NCBI GenBank assembly: GCA_005889345.1
Contig: VBFR01000221.1
Location: 1 to 34,085 of the forward strand
DNA from: Chloroflexota bacterium
GTDB lineage: Bacteria > Chloroflexota > Dormibacteria > CF-121
Reading direction: 5' to 3'
Length of the DNA: 34,085 nt
Positions 1,077-21,246 of the stretch are shown piece after piece (position 1 is the first letter of the stretch; each line of letters begins with the position of its first letter). Under the pieces are notes generated by a model that saw only the letters and a program-made list of their open reading frames with translations, had not been told where the DNA came from and ran no database searches. Both the position numbers and the translations under genes were made by a program.

Positions 1077-2021
1077 TCACGGAGATCCATCCGGCAACCA
1101 ATCTCGAGTCAAAAAGAGCCAGAAGGCGAGCCCGGCGTAGGGCCCGTAACGGTTGAAGCGGCGCTCGATCACCCGATCGCTGACCGGAGCCTTCCGGCCG
1201 AGCAGCCGCGCGTAGGTCGGCCGCGTCCACGAATCGAGGATCAGGCGGTCGTACCGCCCGAGCATCAGCATGATGTGGGCGGCGGCGTACGGCCCAACCC
1301 CGGGCAGCGCCAGCAGTTGGGTGGCCACCTCGTCGTCCGGAAGATCGTCACGCGATGTCGCGGCGAGTGCTTCGAGATCGACGCGACCTTTGGCCACCGA
1401 GGTTGCCAGCGCCTTCAGATAGGGACCGCGGTAGCCGGTGCCCGCAACTTTTCTATAGAAGGATGGCGGCGCGGCAGCCATGGCTTCCGGTGTCGGAAAG
1501 GCGCGCCCGTAGGGACTGTCGGGCGGCGCCCCCGACGCCTTCTCGCCCAGCTGCTGCACGAGCGCGTTCACCATTCGCGTGGTTCCGCCCCAGGAGGTAT
1601 TCGTCGTGCAGATCGTCTTGACCACGTCCTCGAACACTGTCGGGCTGCGCACCATCCGGCCCGCGCCGGTGAGGACCCAGGCGAGATCGGGATCCTGGGC
1701 GGCCACGGTGTAGAAGGGCGTCAGGTCGAGGTCGAGGCTGAGGACATGCCGCACCTGGGCCATGATGGCGACGCCAACGGTGGGCGTCGGCGAGGGACCT
1801 GTGACGGCGATCAGCCCGTGCCCGGGACGGGCCTGGGAGATGATCAACGTGCGAGCGCCGATCCCCGCGAGCGGCACCGTGATTTCGAAGGTCCACGCCT
1901 TCTGATCGAGCCGCATCGGAGGCAGTTCCGCGATCCCGTGCGAGAGAAAAACACGCCGCAGGTCGATGACCTCGCCCGCAGGGCCGACTAGCGGGAATTC
2001 AGCTGTCCAGCCCTCAGCCAT
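1077..2021 (-). CDS. HhH-GPD family DNA glycosylase (AlkA/OGG-like)
   Basis: LLALPGVGPYAAAHIMLMLGRYDRLILDSWTR contains a helix-hairpin-helix and downstream Asp typical of HhH-GPD enzymes. Confidence 0.8.
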   Translation of the reverse strand: MAEGWTAEFPLVGPAGEVIDLRRVFLSHGIAELPPMRLDQKAWTFEITVPLAGIGARTLIISQARPGHGLIAVTGPSPTPTVGVAIMAQVRHVLSLDLDLTPFYTVAAQDPDLAWVLTGAGRMVRSPTVFEDVVKTICTTNTSWGGTTRMVNALVQQLGEKASGAPPDSPYGRAFPTPEAMAAAPPSFYRKVAGTGYRGPYLKALATSVAKGRVDLEALAATSRDDLPDDEVATQLLALPGVGPYAAAHIMLMLGRYDRLILDSWTRPTYARLLGRKAPVSDRVIERRFNRYGPYAGLAFWLFLTRDWLPDGSP

Positions 2022-2445
2022 TCGATGCGGCGAGGTAATCCAGGGCGGCCAGGTAGCCCTCGAACCCGAGGCCCGAGATCACGCCCTTCGCGGCCGCAGC
2101 CGTCACCATACGGTGCCTCTCCGGCTCCCGGGCGAAGACGTTGGAGATGTGGACCTCGACGACCGGCTTGCCCGAGCCGCGCAGCGCATCGGCAAGCGCC
2201 AGACCGTAGTGGGACAGCGCTCCCGGGTTGATGATGATCGCGTCGCTGGCCACGCCCTCTTTTTCGATCCAGTCGATCAGCTGGCCCTCGTGATTCGACT
2301 GCAGGCAGGTCAGCGCGAAGTCGAGCTCGCGGGCACGTTCGTTGAGCAGCTTTTCCAGATCGGCCAGGGTCTGGGTGCCGTAGACCTCCGGCTCGCGGCG
2401 ACCGAGCGTGCCAAGGTTGGGACCGTTGAGCACGAGGACCTTCAA
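2014..2445 (-). CDS. aroQ: Type II 3-dehydroquinate dehydratase
   Basis: MKVLVLNGPNLGTLGRREPEVYG; IINPGALSHYGLALADAL; VEVHISNVFAREPERH signatures. Confidence 0.96.
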   Translation of the reverse strand: MKVLVLNGPNLGTLGRREPEVYGTQTLADLEKLLNERARELDFALTCLQSNHEGQLIDWIEKEGVASDAIIINPGALSHYGLALADALRGSGKPVVEVHISNVFAREPERHRMVTAAAAKGVISGLGFEGYLAALDYLAASNG

Positions 2446-4055
2446 GCGGGCAGCACCTCCGCCAAAGCGGCATCGACGACCGATGAATCGACCGACCGGC
2501 CGTATTCCGCTCGTCCGATCTCGCGGAGCAGAACCCAGTGCAGCTCGCCGGCCCGTGACTTTTTATCATGTCGCATCGCCTCGATCAGCTTCGCGCGCGG
2601 GACGGTCGGCGGCTCGGCGAGCAGGCCGACGTCGCACAGAAGGCCATGTTGTAGTTCGACAGCCTCGGGCGAGCAGGCACCCGCGCGCAGGCTGATGCGC
2701 GCCGCCACCTCCATGCCCCAGGCAACGGCCTCGCCGTGTCGGAGGCGACCGTACCCGGTGGCGCGTTCGAGGGCGTGGGCAACCGTGTGGCCGTAATTCA
2801 GAATGGCCCGAACGCCAGCTTCGTTCGGGTCGCGGCCGATGACCGAGGCCTTGATGGCGATGGCGCGAACGATTGCCTCACGAACAATTGGCGGCCGGCC
2901 ACCCACTAGGCCCGACAGATTCTGCCGGAGCCAATCAAAGAATCGGCGGTCGCTGATGACGGCTGCCTTGATGATCTCGGCAAATGACGCGCGGAACTCT
3001 TTCTCAGGAAGCGTCCCCAGATAATCCAGGTCGCAGAGGATCGCAGAAGGCTGGTGAACGGCGCCCACCAGGTTTTTGCCGGCCGGCAGATTCACCGCAG
3101 TCTTGCCACCGATGCTGCTGTCGACCATGGCGAGTAGCGTAGTTGGCATCTGTATATAACGGATACCGCGCATCCAGGTGGCCGCGGCCAAGCCGGCAAC
3201 ATCCCCCACACTGCCGCCACCGAGCGCGATCAGGGCGCCCTGACGATCGACGCCCGCGGCCGCGAGCGCGTCGTAGATGCCGGCCAGCACCGATAGCTCC
3301 TTCGCCGCTTCCCCGGCCGGTATCACATGCCGCTGTGCCGCAATGCCTTCGGACGCCAGCGCATCCATCAGTGGCTTAGCCCGGCGCTCGACATGCTCGT
3401 CAGTCACGATCAGTAAGCCTCCACCCTGCCCTTCCCCGTAAACGGGAGAGGGATTTCGCTTGCGCAGGGCAGCCGCGACCAGATGCGTGAGACCGTGGCC
3501 GATTGTCACCTCGTGGGGAGAGCCGGGGACGTCGATAAGGATGCGCTGCAGCCCTCCGGCGGAAAGCCGGCCTTTGACCCGTTCAGCAACCTCGGCCGGA
3601 TCGAGGCCATCGGTCTTTACCACGAGGTCCGCCTCGAGGTAGCGTGGCAACCGGCTCGGCAGCAGCGTAGCGATGGCCGACGTCTTGCCCGACTGAAGCA
3701 GTGGTCGATCGGTCGATCCATTCAGGCGGCGAGCCAGTTCGGTGGGCTCCGCCGTCAGCGCGACGACGTAGTTGCCCTCGCGGATGCGCGCCCAGTTGTC
3801 CTCGCGCATCGGCGCGCCGCCGCCGACCGCGATGACGACGCTGTCGCCCTCCAACGCGCCTTGCAGGCAGCGCGACTCGCGCTCGCGGAACCCGGCCTCG
3901 CCTTCAGTGGAGAAAATCTCGGCTACTGAGCGCCCAGCATCCGCCTCGATCACATCATCGAGGTCCACGAAAGGCCGCTTGAGCCGCTGAGCCAGGCGCG
4001 GGCCTACCGTCGACTTGCCGCTTCCCATGAAGCCGACGAGCACCACGTTGTTCAA
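2442..4055 (-). CDS. aroKB: Fused shikimate kinase / 3-dehydroquinate synthase
   Basis: N-terminal GFMGSGKSTVGPRLAQRLKRPFVDLDD (AroK P-loop) and C-terminal GGGSVGDVAGLAAATWMRGIRYIQMPTTLLAMVDSSIGGKTAVNL (AroB) in one ORF. Confidence 0.95.
   Translation of the reverse strand: MNNVVLVGFMGSGKSTVGPRLAQRLKRPFVDLDDVIEADAGRSVAEIFSTEGEAGFRERESRCLQGALEGDSVVIAVGGGAPMREDNWARIREGNYVVALTAEPTELARRLNGSTDRPLLQSGKTSAIATLLPSRLPRYLEADLVVKTDGLDPAEVAERVKGRLSAGGLQRILIDVPGSPHEVTIGHGLTHLVAAALRKRNPSPVYGEGQGGGLLIVTDEHVERRAKPLMDALASEGIAAQRHVIPAGEAAKELSVLAGIYDALAAAGVDRQGALIALGGGSVGDVAGLAAATWMRGIRYIQMPTTLLAMVDSSIGGKTAVNLPAGKNLVGAVHQPSAILCDLDYLGTLPEKEFRASFAEIIKAAVISDRRFFDWLRQNLSGLVGGRPPIVREAIVRAIAIKASVIGRDPNEAGVRAILNYGHTVAHALERATGYGRLRHGEAVAWGMEVAARISLRAGACSPEAVELQHGLLCDVGLLAEPPTVPRAKLIEAMRHDKKSRAGELHWVLLREIGRAEYGRSVDSSVVDAALAEVLPA
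3418..3456. repeat. GC-rich palindromic repeat copy A, in-frame inside the aroB domain
   Basis: cctccaccctgcccttccccgtaaacgggagagggatttcg; same consensus as the copies at 5536, 12800 and 16359. Confidence 0.8.
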
Positions 4056-5140
4056 CGGCGTGTCTCCTGCAGGTAGCTCTCGACGTTACGATGGAGCTCC
4101 GCCACGGAATCGCTGCCGAACTTCTCGAGCAGGACGCCCGCGAGCACCAGCGCCACCATCGCTTCCCCGACCACGCCCGCGGCCGGCACGACGCAGATGT
4201 CACTGCGCTCGTAATGGGCCCGAGCCGGCTCTTTTGTCTTGAGGTCGACGGTAGGGAGCGGCTTGAGCAGGGTCGAGATCGGCTTCATGTAGCCATGGAC
4301 GACGAGTGGTTCGCCGTTGCTCACGCCGCCGGTCAAACCCCCGGCGCGGTTCGTCTCGTGGCCGAGACGCCCATTGTCATAAACGGGGACGTCGTGGACC
4401 TGCGAGCCGGGCAGCCCCGCCCCCTCCACCCCATCGCCGATCGCGACCGCCTTGCAGGCCGGAATGCTGACGATTGCCTGGGCAAGGAGGCCATCAAGCC
4501 TCGTGTCCCACTGGCGGTAGCTGCCCAGGCCGGGCGGCACGCCCTCGGCGACCACGGTGAAGACGCCGCCAAGCGTGTCGCCTCGCTCGCGCGCCGCGTC
4601 GATGGCCGCGACCATCGTCGCACTGGCTTCCTGATCGGGACAGCGGACCGCTGAGCCTTCAACCTCGCCCCATTTAATTGATGGAGGGACAAACGCCTCG
4701 ATCGTGCCGATTGAGCGCGTGTAGCTACGGACCTGGATACCGAATTCGGCGAGCAACAGTTTCGCGACGCCGCCCGCGGCTACCCGCGCCGCGGTCTCGC
4801 GGGCGCTGGCCCGCTCCAGGACGTCGCGCGCGTCATTGGCACCGTACTTGAGCATGCCGGCAAGGTCGGCGTGGCCCGGCCGGACCCGTGTGATCGGCTT
4901 GCGCTTCACCTCGGCGGCGTCGACGGCCATCACCTGGCGCCAGTTCTCCCAATCTGCGACGATGTGGGCCTCGTCGTGCTCGATCGCCATCCGCCCGCCG
5001 CGACCGTGACCACCCTGCCGACGTTGAAGGTCGCGGGCCAGGTCTTCTTCCCGCACCGTCAAACCAGCGGGCACGCCGTCGAGAATGACGGTGAGCCGCT
5101 CGCCGTGCGATTCTCCGGCCGTGAGCAATCGGAGCGTCAT
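4052..5140 (-). CDS. aroC: Chorismate synthase
   Basis: MTLRLLTAGESHGERLTVILDGVPAGL; RPGHADLAGMLKYGANDARDVLERASARETAARVAAG. Confidence 0.97.
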   Translation of the reverse strand: MTLRLLTAGESHGERLTVILDGVPAGLTVREEDLARDLQRRQGGHGRGGRMAIEHDEAHIVADWENWRQVMAVDAAEVKRKPITRVRPGHADLAGMLKYGANDARDVLERASARETAARVAAGGVAKLLLAEFGIQVRSYTRSIGTIEAFVPPSIKWGEVEGSAVRCPDQEASATMVAAIDAARERGDTLGGVFTVVAEGVPPGLGSYRQWDTRLDGLLAQAIVSIPACKAVAIGDGVEGAGLPGSQVHDVPVYDNGRLGHETNRAGGLTGGVSNGEPLVVHGYMKPISTLLKPLPTVDLKTKEPARAHYERSDICVVPAAGVVGEAMVALVLAGVLLEKFGSDSVAELHRNVESYLQETRR

Positions 5141-5913
5141 GCCGGCACCGATGCGCCGTCTAACGCAGCCCGCATCACGTTAAGCGGCGCCTTCCTTCCG
5201 GTCCAGATCTCAAACGATGCGGCGCCCTGGTGCAGCAACATCGCCCGGCCCTCCGCCGACCGGCGGCTGCGGAGGTCGAAGAGGCGTTGGTCCCGTCGTA
5301 ACCAGGAGGGCGGCGGAAGATCGGCGGGGGTGGCATTGACGACGAGGTCCGCGCGGGCAACGGTCTGCTTAATGTGGTCCATCTCAAGGGAGCCGCCCCG
5401 CTCGATCTCGAGATCCCGACACAGCCGTTGGGCCTGCTCGAGATTGCGGGCAATGACCCAGATGTCGGCAACGGGTTGCAGGGCGGCGGCAACCGCTCGC
5501 GCGGCGCCGCCGGCGCCGATGATCGCGACGCGGAAGCCCCCACCCTGCCCTCCCCCGCGAGCGGGGGAGGGTATTTGTTCATCGAGGGCGCGGCGGAAGC
5601 CTTCGACGTCGGTATTCCAGCCCTTCAGCCTGGCGCCCTGCCGGCTGATCGTGTTGACCGCGCCGATGCGGGCGGCCAGCGGATCGAGATCATCGAGGAA
5701 GGCGATCGCGGATTCCTTGTGTGGGATCGTGACATTAGCCCCGAGGATGCGCTCATCGCCTCGCAGCTCGGCCATCGCCGCGGCGAAGTCGGCGCGGCTC
5801 ACTTCTCGAAGCGCATAACGGCAGTCGATGCCGAGTGCCTCGAAGGCGGCATTCTGCATCACGGGCGAGAGGCTGCGAGAAACGGGGTCGCCCAGCAGGA
5901 GCACTCTATTCAT
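5137..5913 (-). CDS. aroE: Shikimate dehydrogenase
   Basis: MNRVLLLGDPVSRSLSPVMQNAAFEALG; GANVTIPHKESA; VAIIGAGGAARAVAAAL. Start re-assigned from 6114 to the ATG at 5913. Confidence 0.95.
   Translation of the reverse strand: MNRVLLLGDPVSRSLSPVMQNAAFEALGIDCRYALREVSRADFAAAMAELRGDERILGANVTIPHKESAIAFLDDLDPLAARIGAVNTISRQGARLKGWNTDVEGFRRALDEQIPSPARGGGQGGGFRVAIIGAGGAARAVAAALQPVADIWVIARNLEQAQRLCRDLEIERGGSLEMDHIKQTVARADLVVNATPADLPPPSWLRRDQRLFDLRSRRSAEGRAMLLHQGAASFEIWTGRKAPLNVMRAALDGASVPA
5536..5575. repeat. GC-rich palindromic repeat copy B, in-frame inside aroE
   Basis: ccccaccctgccctcccccgcgagcgggggagggtatttg; near-perfect CTCCCCCGC/GCGGGGGAG dyad. Confidence 0.88.
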
Positions 5914-7207
5914 GGGTGAGCTCCTGGAGTTGCGTGAAGAAGTTCGGATAGGAGACGGCGACGCAGTCGGCGTCCTCGATCGTGGTCGGACCGGAGGCGA
6001 CGAGTGCCGCCACCGCCAGCGCCATCGCGACGCGGTGATCACCGTGGGACTCGACGGCCGCGCCGCGCAGGCCCGTCGGTCCCTTGACACTGACGCCGTC
6101 GGGGCGCTCCTCAACGATTGCGCCCATTCGGCGGAGGCCCTCCGCCATGGTGGCGATCCGGTCGCTTTCCTTGACGCGGAGCTCGCCCGCGCCGTCGATG
6201 CTCGTGACGCCTTCGGCCTGGGTCGCCAACACGAGCAGGGTCGGGATCTCGTCGATGGCGGCCGCTACGTCGGCGGCTTTGAGGACGGTGGCACGAAGGC
6301 GCTGCCCGGTGACGGTCACCATGCCGCGCGGCTCGATATCGCCAGACGGCCCTTCGATCTTGACCTCGCAGCCCATCGATCGCAGCATCGCGAGGAAGGC
6401 GACCCGGGTCGGGTTGAGGCCGACATCACCGACGATGACCGACCAGCCAGGCCGCAGTGCCGCCGCCGTCAGCCAGAAGGCGGCTGACGAAAAGTCGCCA
6501 GGGATCGCGAGCTCAATCGGCCGCAATGGCTGATGCGACGGACGGATGACGACTCCGTCGGCCGTCGCGTCGACATCTGTTCCCATCGCGCGTAAGAGCC
6601 GCTCGGTGTGGTCGCGCGTGGGCGTGGGCTCCACGACGGTCGTCGGCCCGCTGGCGGAAAGCCCGGCCAGCAGCAGCGCGCTCTTCACCTGGGCACTTGC
6701 TATCGGGAGCGTGTGCCGCCGTCCCTGCAGCAACGTTCCCGTCACAACCACAGGAGCCCGACTCTCCCGCGATTCGATCCTGGCGCCCATGGTCCGCAGC
6801 GGCTCGATCACGCGATCCATCGGGCGGCGGCGGAGCGAGGCGTCGCCGTCGAGGGTCGCGGCAATCGAGCTGCCGGCCAGCAGGCCCAACAGGAGCCGCA
6901 TCGTGGTCCCGGAGTTCGCGCAATCGAGGATCCCGTGCGGCGTCGCGAAGGAGCGTAGGCCCGCGCCACGGATCCGCGCGGTGCGGCCGCTGCGCTGGAG
7001 GTCGGCACCGAGGGCGCGCAGGCAGGCAACGGTCGCCAGGACATCTTCACCTTCGGGCAGACCGTGCACCCAGCTTTCGCCCTGTGCCAGAGCGGCCAGC
7101 ATCAGCACGCGGTGAGCAATCGATTTATCGCCGGGAACCGACAGTTCACCGGCTAGGCGCGTTGCCGGTGAGATAGTTCGGGCGGACTGAACTTCAGCGC
7201 GCGGCAT
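5906..7207 (-). CDS. aroA: 3-phosphoshikimate 1-carboxyvinyltransferase (EPSP synthase)
   Basis: LAGELSVPGDKSIAHRVLMLAALA; LDCANSGTTMRLLLGLLAG; LRVKESDRIATMAEGLRRMGA. Confidence 0.97.
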   Translation of the reverse strand: MPRAEVQSARTISPATRLAGELSVPGDKSIAHRVLMLAALAQGESWVHGLPEGEDVLATVACLRALGADLQRSGRTARIRGAGLRSFATPHGILDCANSGTTMRLLLGLLAGSSIAATLDGDASLRRRPMDRVIEPLRTMGARIESRESRAPVVVTGTLLQGRRHTLPIASAQVKSALLLAGLSASGPTTVVEPTPTRDHTERLLRAMGTDVDATADGVVIRPSHQPLRPIELAIPGDFSSAAFWLTAAALRPGWSVIVGDVGLNPTRVAFLAMLRSMGCEVKIEGPSGDIEPRGMVTVTGQRLRATVLKAADVAAAIDEIPTLLVLATQAEGVTSIDGAGELRVKESDRIATMAEGLRRMGAIVEERPDGVSVKGPTGLRGAAVESHGDHRVAMALAVAALVASGPTTIEDADCVAVSYPNFFTQLQELTHE

Positions 7208-8006
7208 GCACGCCCTCGCTAAATAGCTCCTTCACCCTGGTTCCGGTGGCGATTCGCTGACGATAGCGGTGCAGGACCGCATCGAAGCGATCGATTGCGT
7301 CCACCAGCGCGTCGCGATTCTCCCGCGCGATCGCCTCGTACATCGCGGGGTCGCCGCCGGCCAGGCGTACCATGCCGCGATACCCTGGCCCTCCGAGCGT
7401 CGAATCGGCGTTCCGGTGCACCGTTTCGGCAAAGGCCGAGCTGAGCGCGAAGGCCAGGTGGCTGAGCAAGGCCATCTGCTGGTCGTGGGCGTCGGCGGGC
7501 ATGAAGCTCGGCGTGGCACCAATCGCGCGCACCATCTCGAACCAGATGTCGAACGGCCGGACGTCCTGACCCTGGGTTGGAGTGAAGATCCAGGGCTCCC
7601 GATCGAAGATGGCGGCATCGCTCTCCTCCAGCCCGCTTTGCGCCTTGCCGGCCACCGGGTGGCCGCCAAGAAAACGCGAGGGATTCGACAAACGCTTCGC
7701 CCACCCAATGACGGGCCGCTTGACGCTGGCCACATCCGTGATGAGGGTTCCGGCCGGGACGATGGGTCCCAGGCGTTCAATCACACCGGCGATCTGGTCG
7801 ATCGGTGTCGCGATCACCACAATGTCGCAGTCCGAAACATCGCTCAAATCCGTCGATGCCCGGTTGACAGCCCCGCGTTGCATCGCCGCGGCCGCGCTTT
7901 CCGCTCGCCGTGCCACGCCCGTGACGTCGATCGAGTGGCGCAGGCGGCGCAGGGCCAGCCCGAGAGAGCCGCCGATCAAGCCGAGCCCGACGATGCCGAC
8001 CCGCAT
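7194..8006 (-). CDS. tyrA: Prephenate dehydrogenase
   Basis: [71 protein letters not shown]. Confidence 0.93.
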   Translation of the reverse strand: MRVGIVGLGLIGGSLGLALRRLRHSIDVTGVARRAESAAAAMQRGAVNRASTDLSDVSDCDIVVIATPIDQIAGVIERLGPIVPAGTLITDVASVKRPVIGWAKRLSNPSRFLGGHPVAGKAQSGLEESDAAIFDREPWIFTPTQGQDVRPFDIWFEMVRAIGATPSFMPADAHDQQMALLSHLAFALSSAFAETVHRNADSTLGGPGYRGMVRLAGGDPAMYEAIARENRDALVDAIDRFDAVLHRYRQRIATGTRVKELFSEGVHAAR

Positions 8007-9028
8007 CAGGCCACTCCGACCGTCCGGCTCAGCGCCGCGGCGACGGCGTCGACCTGTTCGACCAGGTGGGCGAACGCTTGCGGGGTCAGCGATTGGGCGC
8101 CATCGGAGAGCGCAACCTCCGGCTGAGCGTGCACCTCGACCATCAGCCCGTGAGCGCCCGCAGCGATCCCCGCCAGCGCCATCGACGTGACGAGGGAACG
8201 CCGACCGGTGCCATGGCTTGGGTCAACGATCACCGGAAGGTGGCTCAACTCCTTGATGAGCGGTACGGCGTTGAGGTCCAGCGTGTTGCGGGTGTAGGTC
8301 TCGAAGGTGCGAATGCCCCGCTCGCAGAGGATCACCTCGTAGTTGCCCTGGCTCAGGATGTACTCGGCGGACAGCAACCACTCCTCGATCGTCGCGGACA
8401 TGCCGCGCTTCAGCAGGACCGGCTTGCGCAGGCGACCGACTTCGGACAGCAGCGGGAAGTTCTGCATGTTGCGGGCGCCGATTTGCAGCACGTCGACGAT
8501 GTCGGCAAGCGTCCCAATGTCGGCCGGCTCCAGCACCTCGCACACCAGGGGAAGACCGGTCTCGCGTTTCGCCTCGCGCAGGATGCTGACGCCGTCGCCG
8601 CGCAGTCCCTGGAAGCTGTAGGGAGAGGTGCGTGGTTTGAAGACACCACCACGCAGAGCGTGGGCCCCCGCCGCCCGCACCTTCCGGCAGGTCTCGAGAT
8701 AGAGCTCTTCGCCGTCAACCGAGCACGGTCCGGCGACGATCCAGGGGCGGTCCCCACCAACCTCCTGCGCACCAACCCTGATGCGGGTATCACGCGATCG
8801 AAACTCGCGATTCGACAATTTGAATGGCTTCGTGATGGGTACCACCTCGGCTACGCCGGGCGCCTCGATGAAGAGTTCCCGAAGCGCGAATGGATTTGTC
8901 CCGATAACGCCGATCACCGTTCGCTCGTCGCCGTCGCTCAGATGGGTCCGGCAACCGTGGGCCTCGACCTGGGAAACGACCGCCGCCACCTGCGCCGGGG
9001 TCGCGTCGTGCCGCATCACGATGATCAT
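8006..9028 (-). CDS. aroF: 3-deoxy-7-phosphoheptulonate synthase (AroA(G)/AroF type)
   Basis: [82 protein letters not shown]. Start re-assigned from 9124 to the ATG at 9028. Confidence 0.95.
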
Positions 9029-9393
9029 GCCGTCACCCTCAACTTCTCCGCGCCGCGGAGATAGACGAAGCGCATCGCCGATGACGGCCGGTCGGTGTTG
9101 ACGAGGAGCAACACGCGGATACACCGTGGGAGGCTGCGTGGGTTGGAGGCGGGCACCGCCATCTCGTGGCCGCAGAGCAGGGGAACGTCCCCCCAGCCGA
9201 AGCGCCGGGCCGCGGCCGCGGGAAATTCCGCCGTCAGATCGGGTGTCGTGGTGAACCAGACGGCGGCGACGTCGCCCGCGTGGAGCGCGTTCTCCCGGGC
9301 AAGCTCCGCCAGCAGCTCCGTCGTGGCGTCGACGATCGCCGTTTCGCTGTCTTCGTCCGTGGTCGTCGCGCCGCGAATCCCTCGAACCGCCAT
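9025..9393 (-). CDS. aroH: Chorismate mutase, AroH type
   Basis: VRGIRGATTTDEDSETAIVDATTELL; FTTTPDLTAEFPAAAARRFGWGDVPLLCGHEMAVP; FVYLRGAEKLR. Strong Shine-Dalgarno AGGAGG at 9403-9408. Confidence 0.93.
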   Translation of the reverse strand: MAVRGIRGATTTDEDSETAIVDATTELLAELARENALHAGDVAAVWFTTTPDLTAEFPAAAARRFGWGDVPLLCGHEMAVPASNPRSLPRCIRVLLLVNTDRPSSAMRFVYLRGAEKLRVTA

Positions 9394-9401
9394 CCTTGTT
9401 T

Positions 9402-9508
9402 GCCTCCTAGGCGCGCCAAGTTCGTTGTCTGTGTGGGAGGAGGCCGGTGAACGGGAGGTGGCGGGAGGGGCGGCGCTAGCCCATCCCGAGCCGGTCCCGT
9501 GCCGGCCC
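9402..9508 (-). promoter_or_regulatory. Putative attenuator with alternative RNA pairings controlling the aroH Shine-Dalgarno
   Basis: GGGCCGG (9508-9502) can pair with CCGGCTC (9494-9488) or CCGGCCT (9447-9441). GCCTCCT (9444-9438) is exactly complementary to the Shine-Dalgarno AGGAGGC (9408-9402). The 9441-9444 overlap makes these pairings exclusive. Confidence 0.55.
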
Positions 9509-9556
9509 GAGGTAGGCGTAAAAGTAAAAGCCCGCGAACTGAATCCGCCCCGTCAT
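9476..9556 (-). CDS. Phe/Tyr-rich leader peptide MTGRIQFAGFYFYAYLGPARDRLGMG*
   Basis: Reverse complement reads ATG ACG GGG CGG ATT CAG TTC GCG GGC TTT TAC TTT TAC GCC TAC CTC GGG CCG GCA CGG GAC CGG CTC GGG ATG GGC TAG, directly upstream of an aromatic amino acid operon. Confidence 0.8.
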   Translation of the reverse strand: MTGRIQFAGFYFYAYLGPARDRLGMG

Positions 9557-9565
9557 GTGCGGCAC

Positions 9566-9594
9566 ATCGTACTAGAAGTCTTCTGACCTGACAA
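9566..9594 (-). promoter_or_regulatory. Sigma70-like promoter for the aro operon leader
   Basis: -35 TTGTCA (9594-9589), 17-bp spacer, -10 TACGAT (9571-9566); predicted start about 0-3 nt from the leader ATG. Confidence 0.6.
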
Positions 9595-9659
9595 GGGCCA
9601 ATCGTAACCTCGCCCGGTATCCCTCTCTGGCGGCACCACGTCCGCCTAAGGAGGCACCC

Positions 9660-10127
9660 ATGCGGTCATTTCGAATACACATCGGCATCATCCCGGCGGT
9701 CGCCGCTGTCTTGCTCGCGGCCTGCGGTGGTACCAGCGCACCCAGTAGTGCGGGGGCGCCGTCGGCGAGCAGCGCCGCCCTGATCCACACCGCCTCGATG
9801 AAGGTCGGCGACAAGACGCAAACCGTGCTGAAGAACACCAAAGGCCTCACGCTCTACTACTTCACCCCCGACACGGCGTCCAAGGTGGCCTGCACCGGCG
9901 GCTGCGCCTCGAACTGGCCACCGCTCCTCGCGAGCTCGGGAGCCCCGACCAGCAGCCCGGCGTTGCCCGGCAAGCTGACGGTGCTGAACGGCGACAACGG
10001 GAACCAGGTTCTATATAACGGACACCCGCTCTATACCTATGTAAAGGACGGGGACGCCGGCGATGCCTACGGCCAGGGCGTCGGTGGAAAGTGGTTCGTC
10101 GCGACGCCTGATCTCGCTGCGGCCTAG
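9660..10127 (+). CDS. COG4315-like secreted lipoprotein (Lipoprotein_15 repeat)
   Basis: Lipobox LLAACGG; LTLYYFTPDT...CTGGCASNWPPLL and VLYNGHPLYTYVKDGDAGDAYGQGVGGKWFVA motifs; Shine-Dalgarno aaggagg. Confidence 0.85.
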   Translation: MRSFRIHIGIIPAVAAVLLAACGGTSAPSSAGAPSASSAALIHTASMKVGDKTQTVLKNTKGLTLYYFTPDTASKVACTGGCASNWPPLLASSGAPTSSPALPGKLTVLNGDNGNQVLYNGHPLYTYVKDGDAGDAYGQGVGGKWFVATPDLAAA

Positions 10128-12799: not shown

Positions 12800-12838
12800 G
12801 ACCCTCACCCTGCCCTCCCCGCGAGCGGGGGAGGGAGA
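12800..12838. repeat. GC-rich palindromic repeat copy C, intergenic
   Basis: gaccctcaccctgccctccccgcgagcgggggagggaga immediately after the CHAP gene stop. Confidence 0.85.
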
Positions 12839-16358: not shown

Positions 16359-16395
16359 CCCCCACCCTGCCCTCCCCCGCAAGTGGGGAGGGGAT
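16359..16395. repeat. GC-rich palindromic repeat copy D, intergenic
   Basis: acccccaccctgccctcccccgcaagtggggagggga. Confidence 0.85.
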
Positions 16396-21175: not shown

Positions 21176-21246
21176 GCCCCACCCGACCCTCCCCCGCCAA
21201 GCGGGGGAAGGAAATGCCATTTGCCCCCGCAAGCGGGGCAGGGCAA
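21176..21246. repeat. GC-rich palindromic repeat copy E, double hairpin
   Basis: ccccacccgaccctcccccgccaagcgggggaaggaaatgccatttgcccccgcaagcggggcagggc: two tandem dyads. Confidence 0.75.

Follow-up and report, generated by a model that had tools for sequence, protein, structure and literature searches.

A conserved Phe/Tyr leader peptide and long hairpin upstream of an aroH operon: a probable ribosome-mediated attenuator in one class of Chloroflexota

Organization of the aroH locus

The DNA analysed here (hereafter the window) is a stretch of 34,085 nucleotides, contig VBFR01000221.1 of assembly GCA_005889345.1, from a Chloroflexota bacterium (Dormibacteria, CF-121). Its reverse strand carries the aromatic pathway genes aroH-aroF-tyrA-aroA-aroE-aroC-aroKB-aroQ (Table 1). 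The initial annotation had described this operon as complete, which holds for the genes just listed but not for pheA, located, likewise trpE, on contigs other than that of the window. It had also pointed to a 26-codon ORF upstream of aroH, ending 82 nt before the aroH ATG and containing six aromatic residues, five of them within codons 10-15 and two of those encoded by UUU; position, length and composition were all confirmed exactly. The codons of this leader ORF read ATG ACG GGG CGG ATT CAG TTC GCG GGC TTT TAC TTT TAC GCC TAC CTC GGG CCG GCA CGG GAC CGG CTC GGG ATG GGC TAG.

A promoter scan returned a single site, where 0.0 were expected in shuffles of the region. It starts 38 nt 5' of the leader ATG and its -10 box ends 9 nt before this codon, so the leader should be translated in a leaderless or nearly leaderless fashion. 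From this spacing, the 5' end of the transcript should coincide with the leader ATG or lie within about 3 nt of it. When the DNA upstream of aroH was shuffled 1000 times with dinucleotides preserved, no shuffle displayed a promoter-linked ORF with as many Phe/Tyr per 8 codons. No intrinsic terminator was found in the aroH upstream region (9300-9750); the arrangement is thus not of the textbook type, and its output must be translational, Rho-dependent or other.

Several other features of the locus were recorded. The motif GGTTACG, located 5' of the -35 box, was retained in most members of the genus and is perhaps an operator, or else a piece of the promoter of the divergent gene, which codes for a secreted-repeat lipoprotein (PF03640). 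A palindrome of about 35 nt was dispersed over the window in five copies, two of which lie in frame within aroK-aroB and aroE. An ORF of 163 aa on the forward strand opposite the leader (9095-9586) was set aside, the spacer indels of relatives often not being multiples of three.

Table 1. Features of the aroH locus and other elements of the window (coordinates refer to the window)
Feature	Position	Strand	Remarks
Divergent gene, secreted-repeat lipoprotein (PF03640)	9660..10127	+	
GGTTACG	9603..9609	-	5' of the -35 box
Promoter TTGTCA-17-TACGAT	9566..9594	-	-35 9594-9589, -10 9571-9566
Leader peptide ORF MTGRIQFAGFYFYAYLGPARDRLGMG	9476..9556	-	26 codons and stop; predicted (near-)leaderless start
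Predicted control codons F10 Y11 F12 Y13 A14 Y15	9512..9529	-	Codons 11-15 TAC TTT TAC GCC TAY in 13/13
Long hairpin, 5' strand	9479..9508	-	Leader codons 17-26
Apical loop UAGCGCC	9472..9478	-	Contains leader stop UAG; AGCGCC in 21/21 aligned elements
Long hairpin, 3' strand	9441..9471	-	C-rich spacer
GCCUCCU, candidate anti-Shine-Dalgarno	9438..9444	-	Overlaps hairpin 3' strand
GGCGC	9413..9417	-	4 nt 5' of SD AGGAGG; complements loop GCGCC; conserved in 20/21
Shine-Dalgarno (SD) AGGAGG of aroH	9403..9408	-	Conserved in the genus
aroH, chorismate mutase	9025..9393	-	ATG at 9393
aroF-type DAHP synthase	8006..9028	-	
tyrA, prephenate dehydrogenase	7194..8006	-	
aroA, EPSP synthase	5906..7207	-	
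aroE, shikimate dehydrogenase	5137..5946	-	
aroC, chorismate synthase	4052..5140	-	
aroK-aroB fusion, shikimate kinase / 3-dehydroquinate synthase	2442..4055	-	
aroQ, type II 3-dehydroquinate dehydratase	2014..2445	-	
Palindromic element CCCCCACCCTGCCCTCCCCCGCNNGCGGGGGAGGG	3418-3452, 5537-5571, 12801-12835, 16359-16393, 21176-21210		Five copies

Conservation of the leader within the genus

The expectation that related genomes would carry a short aromatic ORF at this position was borne out by an alignment of orthologous aroH 5' regions. The leader was present, with an invariant YFYAY codon run, in 13 of the 14 genus members (the window's genome counted) whose aroH was matched in full, the genomes compared being mostly fragmented assemblies; aroH was not found in G007. 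Leader peptides of the genus shared a fixed YFYAYLGPAR-RLGM segment behind a variable N-terminus, ended in TAG or TAA, and showed a frame-keeping deletion of 6 nt in three genomes. The promoter was similarly constrained, with a 17-nt spacer between the -35 and -10 boxes in all 13 members and 8-10 nt between the -10 box and the leader ATG. In G004 (L004), only the 3' half of the leader was left; promoter and 5' half were missing and the remainder was fused to lipoprotein-like sequence, reflecting either a natural deletion or a misassembly. Within aroH itself, codons 2-11 displayed the lowest synonymous variation among all 10-codon windows, which fits a role at the RNA level but could also reflect a general constraint on gene starts.

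A search of the class for the aromatic leader pattern retrieved 13 of 110 genomes, all belonging to the genus, and a related pattern run against 84,980 genomes retrieved genus members and one Neiella match, judged to be due to chance; this strict pattern failed on diverged relatives that were later recovered by covariance model. The leader matches bearing a name were metagenome-assembled 'Chloroflexi bacterium' genomes from soil. Among the genus genomes examined, no such leader was seen before trpE or pheA.

RNA secondary structure

RNAalifold, applied to 12 leaders, predicted a single long arm in which leader codons 17-26 pair with the C-rich spacer and the stop codon occupies the loop. In the set of 13 aroH sequences, 96.5% of the cells of this hairpin were paired and three pairs displayed double changes (A-U to U-A; U-A and A-U; G-C, G-U and A-U). 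The resulting covariation score was matched by none of 500 shuffles, and controls in which the pairing was slid reached at most 57% paired cells. Likewise, in a joint alignment of 21 elements, comprising the relatives described below, double changes affected 7 pairs (26 cells), none of 500 shuffles did as well, and sliding the pairing left no more than 52% of the cells paired; these pair counts are biased toward the structure, since the alignment (A5) had been adjusted to the first model. When single sequences were folded freely with the SD region omitted, most leaders of pheS and DAHP synthase genes adopted this hairpin too. The leader peptide and the long hairpin are both well supported.

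Two further pairings would involve the translation start of aroH. The GCGCC of the apical loop may form a pseudoknot with the GGCGC preceding the SD, a candidate interaction whose two partners are both invariant. The candidate anti-SD could, in opposition to the long hairpin, pair with the SD of aroH; this pairing was conserved (93% paired) and displayed no double change.

That leader codons 16-26 are almost fixed at the nucleotide level would also suit an RNA whose structure is recognized by a protein or ligand, its ORF being untranslated or incidental; similar reservations have been voiced about the actinobacterial LEU element (PMC1262725). We nevertheless hold this explanation to be very unlikely given the frame-keeping indels, the proximity of the start codon to the -10 box, and the fact that four families differing in RNA sequence retain both the reading frame and the aromatic codons.

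Related elements upstream of pheS and DAHP synthase genes

A covariance model built from the aroH-leader hairpin was used to search for further copies of the element. It uncovered a second copy before pheS in seven genomes of the genus and, in two further genera of the window's family, an element preceding a second DAHP synthase gene. A second model (R2) added one element, again before a DAHP synthase gene, in genome G061 of family f3. Other R2 matches, in G357, G371, G119, G432, G211 and G046, lay inside or antisense to long ORFs with no aromatic gene downstream and were attributed to chance.

The DAHP synthase upstream regions of the class displayed promoter-linked Phe/Tyr leaders, such as MFAIAPRFYFYFEYATSAPGPVRVLLSK and MQRTARHFYFYFYAGPAFGLPARVTT, each followed by a stop codon. 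For 16 leader-bearing DAHP synthase genes distributed over four families, densities ranged from 2 to 6 Phe/Tyr per 8 codons and were attained in 0-1 of 300 dinucleotide shuffles each. A chance ORF in GC-rich intergenic DNA, which might have been invoked because short ORFs are common and the original observation came from one sequence, is hardly conceivable for a leader that is conserved and recurs before functionally matched genes. The other, longer type of DAHP synthase showed no leader in the three regions ahead of the match, a weak control as these regions were largely coding. In the window's genus, where a single DAHP synthase was found, the leader was located on its aroH operon.

Leaders of the pheS copies contained Phe codons and no Tyr codon. 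They lay directly 3' of rplT (TAACATG), whereas the start codon was close behind a -10 box in the aroH set and promoter-linked before DAHP synthase genes. This dependence of the aromatic codon type on the downstream gene is what codon starvation predicts, and argues against a nascent-peptide arrest in which free Phe/Tyr or another ligand would trigger stalling through the conserved (G/R)PA(R/G) segment. Such an arrest might explain why a P-A pair lies shortly behind the aromatic run in most leaders of several families, encoded by different codons (CCG GCN, CCA GCC); yet these codons belong to the hairpin strands, which can equally account for their conservation, and we consider the arrest improbable.

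The distance between the last Phe/Tyr codon and the stop was exactly 11 codons in 24 of the 26 leaders of families f1 and f3, and f3 leaders folded into a long arm comparable to the aroH hairpin. The pheS leaders of the window's genome, G000 (L104, 605-746), and of G013 (L112, 1415-1571) displayed 9 codons to the stop, not 11, and the loop of the latter was altered. Leaders of f2 DAHP synthase genes (L127, L138, L143 and others) were followed by a different and larger RNA with a hairpin adjoining the SD (CCGTGTGGTGG...CCACACGGAGG), possibly a second architecture. The 16 f3 genomes examined displayed no comparable aromatic leader ahead of pheS, and no convincing member outside this Chloroflexota class emerged from 400 genomes sampled across the phylum with strict filters.

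Proposed mechanism

Ribosome-mediated attenuation, already suggested by the initial annotation, was supported by the conservation of the leader in the genus and by the presence of leaders of the same type before pheS and DAHP synthase genes. We consider it probable, from comparative sequence data, that the element is a Phe/Tyr-responsive attenuator of this kind, belonging to a family so far known in one Chloroflexota class only. Judging by the promoter position, transcription would start at the leader ATG or within about 3 nt of it, and ribosomes would initiate on the leader without an SD. When charged Phe- and Tyr-tRNA are sufficient, the ribosome would proceed to the UAG and open the hairpin formed by leader codons 17-26 and the spacer; its C-rich 3' strand would then be free to mask the ribosome-binding site of the first gene, to load Rho, or both, and thereby to lower the expression of that gene. 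When they are scarce, the ribosome would stall upstream, within the FYFYAY codons, and the hairpin would remain closed. The loop could then pair with the GGCGC before the SD, and the operon would be ON.

As to the output, control of the ribosome-binding site is our first choice and Rho a serious rival, both this control and the pseudoknot being working hypotheses. With a ribosome mask applied, equilibrium folding revealed no consistent difference in SD access between a stalled and a finished ribosome. Spacer pairing with the ribosome-binding site did not exceed that of shuffles in the aroH group (p 0.37-0.96); it was somewhat above shuffles in family f3 (p 0.017-0.10) and clearly above them in one pheS leader. 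The same sensor might instead act through Rho-dependent termination alone, a finished ribosome exposing the C-rich, G-poor spacer and a stalled one keeping it hidden. The missing intrinsic terminator, an SD sequestration not beyond chance in the aroH group and the spacer composition (C 0.51 and G 0.20 in the window; C 0.54 and G 0.23 in G015) all speak for such an output. Yet the C excess is partly dictated by the G-rich leader strand with which the spacer pairs, and in family f3 it is weak (C about 0.4, G about 0.35). An output through Rho alone appears rather unlikely to us, though by no means negligible.

More tentatively, and with somewhat more doubt than confidence, the elements might compose a regulon spanning this whole Chloroflexota class. 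A single RNA architecture (a leaderless aromatic leader, a fixed 11-codon ruler, a stop codon in the hairpin loop and a loop-to-pre-SD pseudoknot) would then govern translation of pheST, of DAHP synthase and of the aroH operon, having moved between loci with codons tuned to each gene.

Comparison with known attenuators

Amino-acid attenuators are mainly known in Proteobacteria, Firmicutes and Actinobacteria. Those formed by pheL and pheM of E. coli act on transcription and possess an intrinsic terminator, in contrast to the window element, which displays none and matches no Rfam leader family. Both kinds share a Phe-codon leader, placed in E. coli before a Phe pathway gene (pheL, pheA) and before pheST (pheM) (PMC11802643). 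More generally, covariance models of Rfam leader families and T-boxes gave no match in the window region or in eleven related loci.

The nearest system in function is AroR of Corynebacterium glutamicum, a Phe-Tyr-Phe leader peptide 5' of the aroF (DAHP synthase) operon. In the summary that PMC11802643 gives of Neshat et al. 2014, stalling at the Phe/Tyr codons raises expression, and transcription attenuation responds to Phe, not to Tyr. Both leaders thus precede a DAHP synthase operon with codons of the Phe-Tyr-Phe type. The window element differs by its phylum, by the absence of an intrinsic terminator, by a stop codon in the loop of a long hairpin and by its occurrence before pheS as well.

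Two other systems resemble the element in part. The mycobacterial poly-cysteine attenuators (Canestrari et al. 2020), as outlined in PMC9031893 and PMC9094748, are leaderless short ORFs that act on translation of the downstream gene and contain a codon run for the amino acid of the pathway; they concern cysteine and another phylum, and the likeness is drawn at the level of the leader ORF. The actinobacterial LEU element likewise combines a leader ORF, the absence of a terminator and a proposed pseudoknot near the SD (PMC1262725), but its Leu codon run pairs with the SD, whereas in the window it is the codons 3' of the aromatic run that pair with the spacer, and the loop that is complementary to the GGCGC preceding the SD.

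Conclusions

No description of amino-acid attenuators in Chloroflexota, or of this leader family, was found in the open-licence PMC literature. The leader predicts how Phe/Tyr would be sensed in soil-dwelling, uncultured representatives of a major phylum and adds a leader family for annotation. It also offers a design with no intrinsic terminator, in which the switch hairpin carries a stop codon in its loop and the leader is predicted to start leaderless. Finally, its three kinds of target genes provide natural variants for asking which amino acid each leader senses.
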